This document shows, one piece after another, positions 5,954 to 7,790 of a stretch of DNA of 42,012 nucleotides. Under the pieces are notes generated by a model, which did not search any database, had not been told where the DNA came from, and saw only the letters and a list, made by a program, of their open reading frames with translations. A program made the position numbers and the translations under genes. The stretch is from Candidatus Zipacnadia bacterium. Lineage in GTDB: Bacteria; Armatimonadota; Zipacnadia; Zipacnadales; UBA5352. Each line of letters begins with the position of its first letter. Position 1 is the first letter of the stretch. The stretch covers positions 1-42,012 of the forward strand of contig JALGTR010000003.1 of NCBI GenBank assembly GCA_029821265.1. Direction: 5' to 3'.

Positions 5954-6199
5954 CTACAGAACAGGCGGTTCGGGCGGCTGCAGGCCGCCCCCATCGTCCG
6001 GCGGCTCCGGCGGAGGCGGGGGCTGTATGCCGCCATTGTCGTCATTCGGTTCGCCTCCGGGGGGCACTGGCGCTGGCTCAACCGTAGGGCCGCCTGTGTC
6101 GTCGCCGATGAACGGAGGGTTTCCCCCGGTGCCGTCGCACGCGGCGAACACGATGACCGTCAGCAGGATCGAAATGAGCAAGAGGCATTTAACCTTCAC
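5954..6199 (-). CDS. Small proline-rich lipoprotein
   Basis: MKVKCLLLISILLTVIVFAAC lipobox, then a Pro/Gly/Asp-rich tail (IQPPPPPEPPDDGGGLQPPEPP); GAGGGGAGA SD upstream of ATG. Confidence 0.7.
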   Translation of the reverse strand: MKVKCLLLISILLTVIVFAACDGTGGNPPFIGDDTGGPTVEPAPVPPGGEPNDDNGGIQPPPPPEPPDDGGGLQPPEPPVL

Positions 6200-6268: not shown

Positions 6269-6424
6269 TCACCCTATCGTATCAGTCGGTGGCCTCTCTG
6301 TCCAGCCCATATCGCATCCGTCGCCCCGGGACGAGGCATCGCGCGAGAGGTAGACGACGAGTATAAAGAGAGCCAGCGCCAGGTCCAGCCCTGTTACATG
6401 CGCCACATCAGCCAGCGGGTTCAT
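6269..6424 (-). CDS. Predicted 51-aa single-pass membrane protein, candidate SOS-regulated
   Basis: MNPLADVAHVTGLDLALALFILVVYLSRDASSRGDGCDMGWTERPPTDTIG; GGGAGGAGCAATAATG gives a strong SD; promoter and palindromes immediately upstream. The track's longer 6269..6871 ORF runs through the promoter and is probably not the true start. Confidence 0.6.
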   Translation of the reverse strand: MNPLADVAHVTGLDLALALFILVVYLSRDASSRGDGCDMGWTERPPTDTIG

Positions 6425-6443
6425 TATTGCTCCTCCCATCAAT

Positions 6444-6457
6444 CGAACGTCAGTTCG
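6444..6457. promoter_or_regulatory. LexA/SOS-box-like palindrome 1 (at the predicted start site)
   Basis: CGAACGTCAGTTCG = CGAAC-N4-GTTCG, matching the GAAC-N4-GTTC core; immediately downstream of the -10. Confidence 0.55.
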
Positions 6458-6458
6458 T

Positions 6459-6487
6459 ATTCTACTCGCCCCGGAGCGGTGCGTCAA
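6459..6487 (-). promoter_or_regulatory. Near-consensus sigma70 promoter for the 51-aa ORF
   Basis: On the minus strand: TTGACG (6487-6482), 17 bp spacer, TAGAAT (6464-6459). Confidence 0.7.
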
Positions 6488-6496
6488 CCCAAATAT

Positions 6497-6510
6497 CGAA
6501 TTAACGTTCG
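6497..6510. promoter_or_regulatory. LexA/SOS-box-like palindrome 2 (upstream of the -35)
   Basis: CGAATTAACGTTCG: GAAT-N4-GTTC, one mismatch from the core; centre 53 bp from box 1 (about 5 helical turns). Confidence 0.45.
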
Positions 6511-6570
6511 ACGTGTCGCCATCCGACCGGATGATGATGTCGCATTCCGCGAGGGCCTTGACTGCACTCC

Positions 6571-6601
6571 TATAATAGTGTAACGTGGGGACACTCTTAT
6601 A
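6571..6601. promoter_or_regulatory. Hyphenated inverted repeat upstream of sat (candidate operator)
   Basis: TATAATAGTGT-AACGTGGGG-ACACTCTTATA; arms complementary at 10 of 11 positions. Confidence 0.45.
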
Positions 6602-6635: not shown

Positions 6636-7790
6636 ATGATTGCCCCACATGGCGGGAAGCTCGTCAATCGCGTGCTTGAGGGTGACGCGCTCGAGGAGGC
6701 CAGGTCGAGGGCTGCGGATCTGCCCAGGCTGGCGGTGACCGAGGAGATCCTCAGCGACGCCCGCAACCTCGCCCGCGGCGTCTTCAGCCCGCTCGAAGGC
6801 TTCGTCACGGAGCAGCAGTTCAATAGCATCGTGAACGACGAGCGCCTGCCGGATGGCACGATCTTCCCCATCCCGATCTTCCTGACCGTCGATGAGCCTG
6901 ACGCTGTTGCGGCGGGCTCACAGGTTGCGCTGGTGAGTGAGAGCGATCCCGAGAGTCCCGTCGCGATTCTGAACGTCGAGGAGATCTACCAGTGGGATAA
7001 GGAGAAGGCTGCGGCATCGGTTTTCGGGACGGCTGACACCGATCATCCCGGCGTCACCGGCTACCATGCGCGCGGCGACCACGCAGTCGGCGGGACGGTT
7101 GACCTGATCGACAACGATCGCGGGCCGTTCGCCGAGGTGAACCTGTTTCCGGCCGAGACCCGGGCGCTCTTCGAGGAGCGCGGCTGGCGCACCGTCTGCG
7201 CCTTCCAGACGCGCAATGTGCCGCATGCGGGACACGAGGACCTGCAGAAGACCGTGCTGGGGCTTGTTGACGCACTGATGATCCAGCCGGTCATCGGCAA
7301 GAAGAAGTCCGGTGACTACCAGGATGCGGTGATCATCGCGGCGTACGAGGCGCTGATCGCGAATTACTTCCACCCTGACCGCGTCCTGCTGAACATCCTC
7401 CCGACGGAGATGCGCTACGCCGGGCCGAAAGAGGCCATCCTCCACGGCATCATGCGCAAGAACTACGGGTGCACGCACATCATCATTGGTCGCGACCATG
7501 CGGGTGTCGGCAACTACTACGGTGAGGAAGAGGCCATCGAGAAGTTCGAGGCGATGGCGGATGAGCTGGAGATCATGCCGATCACTATCCGGGGCGACTT
7601 CTGGTACTGCTGTGAGTGCGGCCGTGTCGCCTCGAATCGCACCTGCCCCCACGATGGCGATGCCTGCCTGTCGTTCAGCTGCACCGAGATTCGCGCCATG
7701 ATCCGGGAGGGCACGCCGCCCCGGTCCGAGATCATGCGCAAAGAGGTCTTCGAGGTCATCCAGCAGTTCGATCAGCCGTTCTGCGAGTAG
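6636..7790 (+). CDS. sat: Sulfate adenylyltransferase (ATP sulfurylase, Zn-binding type)
   Basis: CAFQTRNVPHAGHEDLQK, GRDHAGVGNYYG, and Cys/His cluster YCCECGRVASNRTCPHD. Confidence 0.93.
   Translation: MIAPHGGKLVNRVLEGDALEEARSRAADLPRLAVTEEILSDARNLARGVFSPLEGFVTEQQFNSIVNDERLPDGTIFPIPIFLTVDEPDAVAAGSQVALVSESDPESPVAILNVEEIYQWDKEKAAASVFGTADTDHPGVTGYHARGDHAVGGTVDLIDNDRGPFAEVNLFPAETRALFEERGWRTVCAFQTRNVPHAGHEDLQKTVLGLVDALMIQPVIGKKKSGDYQDAVIIAAYEALIANYFHPDRVLLNILPTEMRYAGPKEAILHGIMRKNYGCTHIIIGRDHAGVGNYYGEEEAIEKFEAMADELEIMPITIRGDFWYCCECGRVASNRTCPHDGDACLSFSCTEIRAMIREGTPPRSEIMRKEVFEVIQQFDQPFCE

Follow-up and report, generated by a model that had tools for sequence, protein, structure and literature searches.

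A conserved single-helix membrane protein under predicted LexA control in the Zipacnadia, a candidate SOS division brake

SOS division inhibitors vary between phyla, and gene callers miss them because of their small size. SidA of Caulobacter crescentus, a 29-residue SOS-induced inner-membrane protein, acts on FtsW (PMC4211646). YneA of Bacillus subtilis and ChiZ of Mycobacterium are likewise small SOS-controlled membrane proteins, but differ in having an extracellular LysM domain, in YneA a requirement for inhibition, and the YneA helix binds TM7 of FtsW (PMC13396833). SosA of Staphylococcus aureus is an SOS-controlled single helix without LysM whose extended extracellular part is needed for activity (PMC13396833). 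The type I toxin TisB of Escherichia coli, also LexA-controlled, small and hydrophobic, depends on leader processing, and both a structured 5' leader and the antisense RNA IstR-1 restrain it (PMC11575346). The palindrome CGAAC-N4-GTTCG is the LexA box of B. subtilis and S. aureus, and is thus common to YneA, SosA and the small gene described here, unlike the Caulobacter LexA box, which is a direct repeat (PMC9578287); that of Streptomyces venezuelae is tCGAAC-N4-GNNCGa (PMC9380542).

The DNA analysed here (the window) is a stretch of 42,012 nucleotides, contig C85 of a draft genome (G000; 4.24 Mb in 362 contigs) from the uncultured Zipacnadia, a group treated within the Armatimonadota (PMC10290634). 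On its minus strand lies a small, previously unannotated gene, 24–51 residues long across genomes, which here encodes a 51-residue protein predicted to span the membrane once (MNPLADVAHVTGLDLALALFILVVYLSRD...; 6269–6424 with the stop codon, ATG at 6424, stop at 6271–6269), its conserved core being roughly residues 1–29. A Shine-Dalgarno sequence, GGGAGGAG (6430–6437), stands 5 bases before the ATG, and the homologs have AGGAG-like sites. Further upstream is a sigma-70-type promoter, TTGACG-N17-TAGAAT (6459–6487; −35 at 6487–6482, −10 at 6464–6459), and one base behind its −10 the proximal LexA box, CGAACTGACGTTCG (6444–6457), covers the expected transcription start. A distal LexA-like box with one mismatch, CGAACGTTAATTCG (6497–6510), lies 9 bp above the −35. 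The ORF, ribosome site, promoter and both palindromes had been reported in the first-pass annotation, and all are present at base resolution; the 200-residue open frame said to enclose the small ORF is seen at 6871–6269 (minus strand).

Recurrence of the ORF in close relatives, on which that reading depended, is borne out by an aligned locus in the corresponding position of 7 of 10 family genomes, tblastn and profile searches having recovered homologs from G002, G003, G004, G006, G007 and G009. All of them, the 46-residue form of G007 included, have the start, a Shine-Dalgarno sequence and the same promoter-operator. A shorter form occurs at the syntenic place in G005, where TTGACA-N16-TATACT is directly followed by CGAACAGTTGTTCG and then by a 24-residue peptide, MDGIHVLACALMVVLYVCRDAFIG, that retains the Gly-to-Tyr spacing of the core. 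Across these eight genomes TTGAC and TA...T are always kept and the LexA box always lies 0–2 bp behind the −10, exact in seven and with one mismatch in G002. Among named relatives, the gene occurs in MAGs of 'Candidatus Zipacnadia bacterium' and 'candidate division WS1 bacterium'. No small ORF is recognisable in G008, so the gene is not indispensable, and G001, the other genome without a hit, is 59% complete. The syntenic place in genomes of other families has no such box, save for one single-mismatch match in G016. A profile search of 291 genomes found no homologs outside the family, a match at E = 0.01 within a 756-residue frame being set aside, and viral contigs yielded none.

Could the ORF and its palindrome both be coincidental? 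An exact box is expected 0.03 times in 42 kb under a first-order Markov model, and the window's genome holds 11 exact boxes against 5 occurrences of the reversed pattern, about a twofold excess. In the relatives per-genome counts of the exact box do not rise above the reversed-pattern control, which favours coincidence and led us to reject motif counts alone as evidence. The combined pattern TTGAC-N(17-19)-TANNNT-N(0-4)-CGAAC-N4-GTTYG behaves otherwise, with 19 matches in 291 Armatimonadota genomes and none for its reversed control. Seven of these matches are the small gene, one per genome in seven family genomes, and within the family the pattern is found nowhere else; those outside the family include DUF6504-like, ImuB-like and DinB-like genes, as expected of a LexA operator. 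It is the register of promoter and box, rather than the motif alone, that is decisive for a non-chance origin, and with the arrangement kept in eight genomes and the ORF under selection, coincidence has a negligible probability.

The palindromes had been read as LexA's, and the lexA promoters of the lineage do carry the same box type rather than an unrelated motif. A lexA gene was detected in 10 of the 11 genomes searched, and TCGAAC-N4-GTTTGC stands 108–139 bases before the LexA match in G000, G002, G003, G004, G005 and G006; in G001 the distance is 254 bases. In the window's genome this GTTTG variant precedes lexA and uvrA; 8 of the 11 exact boxes fall, so far as inspected, within long open frames, and the other 3 precede dinB, the small ORF, and a short DUF6504-like gene with a PHP-domain dnaE-type gene behind it (names other than lexA were read from translations). 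Relatives have boxes before dinB (3 genomes) and the DUF6504-like gene (about 4). No box was found directly in front of recA, which apparently follows a 2'-5' RNA ligase-like gene within an operon. The LexA of the window's genome has VAAGEP, SGDSM and ATVK, corresponding to an Ala-Gly cleavage site and a Ser/Lys pair, and from these motif residues is predicted to be self-cleavable; the genome also encodes RecA. The box of the small gene is of the same type as the genome's lexA operator and is positioned to block the promoter. Together with its conservation in eight genomes, the boxes at lexA, uvrA, dinB and the DUF6504-like–dnaE pair and the cleavable LexA strongly support the LexA gating proposed earlier, and on this sequence evidence the small gene is almost certainly controlled by LexA.

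The literature searched contained no paper on a LexA regulon of Armatimonadota. In seven family genomes (L128, L141, L145, L153, L161, L168 and L189) the promoter region of a DEAD/DEAH helicase-like gene contains an exact LexA box, and the gene apparently belongs to the core SOS genes of the lineage. In G284, two Dam-type DNA methylase-like genes (L214 and L216) lie under exact LexA-type promoters and are perhaps prophage genes.

The two-box arrangement described in the first-pass annotation holds for only part of the family. The distal box is present in the window, G007 and G003, with centre-to-centre spacings from the proximal box of 53, 51 and 51 bp, respectively, and is absent from the other five of the eight genomes. 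Since 0 of 2000 shuffles reach three genomes, we consider it real where it occurs; being confined to three of eight genomes, it is not essential, and only some genera have the two-box arrangement.

At the protein level, the first 25 aligned codons show 0.34/0.15/0.53 differences per codon position, and each of the 20 pairs with computable dS has a dN smaller than its dS (ratios about 0.1 to 0.7); judged by these substitution patterns, the small ORF is under purifying selection. Besides Met1, the invariant core residues are G12, D14, L17, L22 and Y25. The last ~13 residues of the 51-residue protein, by comparison, are not conserved as protein. Inside the 3' end of the ORF lies a second promoter, TGGACA-N17-TACGAT with an extended −10 (TGA), at 6276–6304 on the minus strand, which is not LexA-linked. 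Its form CTGGACA-N17-TANNAT is kept at the ORF end in the seven homologous loci and in G008, which is without the small ORF, showing that these bases are conserved as a promoter and leaving the protein tail without protein-level conservation; the counterpart beside the shorter G005 ORF is TTGCAG-N17-TAGAAT. A conserved C-terminal motif, GLD...AD, was considered and rejected as a protein signal, because its bases are those of the lipoprotein promoter and are read in another frame in the window's copy.

This second promoter presumably serves the downstream gene, which on an open-frame reading encodes a Pro/Gly-rich small lipoprotein of 81 residues with a GTG start and a lipobox-like FAAC (5954–6199, minus strand). 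The lipoprotein's own promoter is thus buried in the upstream small ORF. At least seven other genomes have kept the lipoprotein at this locus, and most copies end in PP.PP plus a hydrophobic pair. Its start lies about 70 bases past the ORF stop and SOS transcripts may run into it, so that the small ORF could be merely a translated leader and the lipoprotein the true LexA target. Three observations make this very improbable: the purifying selection acts at the amino-acid level, the lipoprotein has a conserved promoter of its own, about 75 bp before its start and with no link to LexA, and the lipoprotein is retained where box and ORF have been lost.

On the other side, the divergent neighbour is a sulfate adenylyltransferase-like gene (sat, named by sequence reading; 6636–7790, plus strand), which marks the conserved locus. 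At all seven homologous loci the rplM-rpsI-side neighbours are shared, and six of these loci have sat in the divergent position. A neighbourhood so fixed within the family, with sat on one side and the lipoprotein on the other, would suit a different SOS membrane role, with the helix as a modulator of some membrane enzyme, transporter or protease, or as a partner of the lipoprotein or sulfate genes, and with division left unblocked. The lipoprotein, however, has its conserved box-free promoter and is present in G008, where the small gene is missing, and the small gene is still kept in G003, where the distance to sat is about 700 bp rather than about 200, and in G004, where sat was not found beside it; we regard such a role as somewhat unlikely. 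A conserved inverted repeat, CACTCCTATAATAGTG (variants CACTCTTATAATAGTG and CACTCTTATTGTAGTG), lies upstream of sat in the window (6565–6580, plus strand) and in G002, G006, G007 and G009, and is possibly an operator for sulfate assimilation.

The label of small membrane protein, given at first reading, is strongly supported by conservation and hydropathy. Every homolog has a 17-residue hydrophobic stretch (mean hydropathy 1.9–2.4), and structure prediction on seven sequences gave a single helix over residues 3–35, with pLDDT about 90 for residues 11–20 and 87 for residues 21–30 and low confidence in the tail. The helix has the core pattern G-x-D-x2-L...LY, and since the G005 peptide is reduced to the helix and short ends, the helix is the likely working part. 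Pfam, NCBIfam, PHROGs and the PDB hold no family match to the protein, which therefore inherits no functional label.

In combining small size, one predicted membrane helix and predicted LexA control, the protein is closest to SidA, which likewise has no soluble domain; the likeness drawn here is one of control, size and topology, and the target is a presumed one. A LysM domain of the YneA/ChiZ type is not found, the ORF being too short and without a Pfam match. The extended part that SosA needs also has no equivalent, as the tail is unconserved here and nearly absent in G005. Judged from its sequence, the small protein represents a new family within a functional kind that is already known.

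By analogy with these systems we infer the following course of damage induction, membrane insertion, target binding and division arrest. In the undamaged cell, LexA on CGAACTGACGTTCG would cover the transcription start and block TTGACG-N17-TAGAAT. DNA damage would lead to RecA-stimulated self-cleavage of LexA and free the promoter, and the short-leader mRNA with its strong ribosome site would give a burst of protein, which would insert one short helix as a single-pass inner-membrane protein. This helix would then most likely bind a divisome membrane protein, for example one of the FtsW family, so that septation is held up during DNA repair. FtsW-family proteins occur in nearly all walled bacteria, and the three encoded in this genome, as possible targets, accordingly lend weak support.

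The first-pass annotation's wording, a checkpoint or toxin-like peptide, would also admit a toxin of the TisB kind, a hydrophobic peptide that is made in the SOS response and depolarises the membrane, leading to dormancy. SOS control, small size and the single hydrophobic helix would fit this. Unlike TisB, however, the small gene has no apparent antisense antitoxin or inhibitory 5' leader and has a strong, canonical Shine-Dalgarno sequence. The distance from box end to start codon is 17–20 bases in 6 of 8 genomes (34 in G003, 56 in G005), a short leader that contrasts with TisB's long, structured, translation-inactive one. A consensus scan, in itself a weak test, found no conserved antisense promoter in the eight genomes, and the helix flanks are neutral to acidic, not cationic, in most homologs. 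A depolarising toxin is therefore unlikely, and size, single helix, SOS control and the absence of an antitoxin-like arrangement lead us to favour a division brake. A SidA-like brake acting through the membrane helix is, by analogy, the best mechanism, and we give it an even chance of being correct: the SidA helix can stop division, yet the dependence of YneA on LysM shows that a helix by itself does not always suffice.

Conservation of a LexA operator has in this way revealed a candidate division inhibitor that gene callers would miss. That it is a new, lineage-specific SOS checkpoint peptide of the Armatimonadota, with a bare helix of ~24 residues as its working part, is a tentative proposal, which we hold possible with the balance leaning against it. 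A sequence family, a natural 24-residue minimal form and a natural loss make division arrest by a bare helix directly testable.

Similar layouts were seen elsewhere. In G017, from another family of the order, L205 (1500–1800) has the same promoter–LexA box layout before a 65-residue single-helix ORF (MDTVSECSSAALNGVDVLLWVLFVAVV...); a second box-like sequence follows closely downstream. We did not accept this ORF as a family homolog (hhalign probability 1.7%), and no second genome with it was found; on the same tentative reading, its layout points to a repeated origin of such brakes as free-standing helices controlled by LexA. In G284, L204 (minus strand) has a LexA-type promoter and, 35 bases past the box, a 24-residue hydrophobic ORF, MMFRTTYTIVLALAIIFTGTNIYA, followed by a 460-residue protein.
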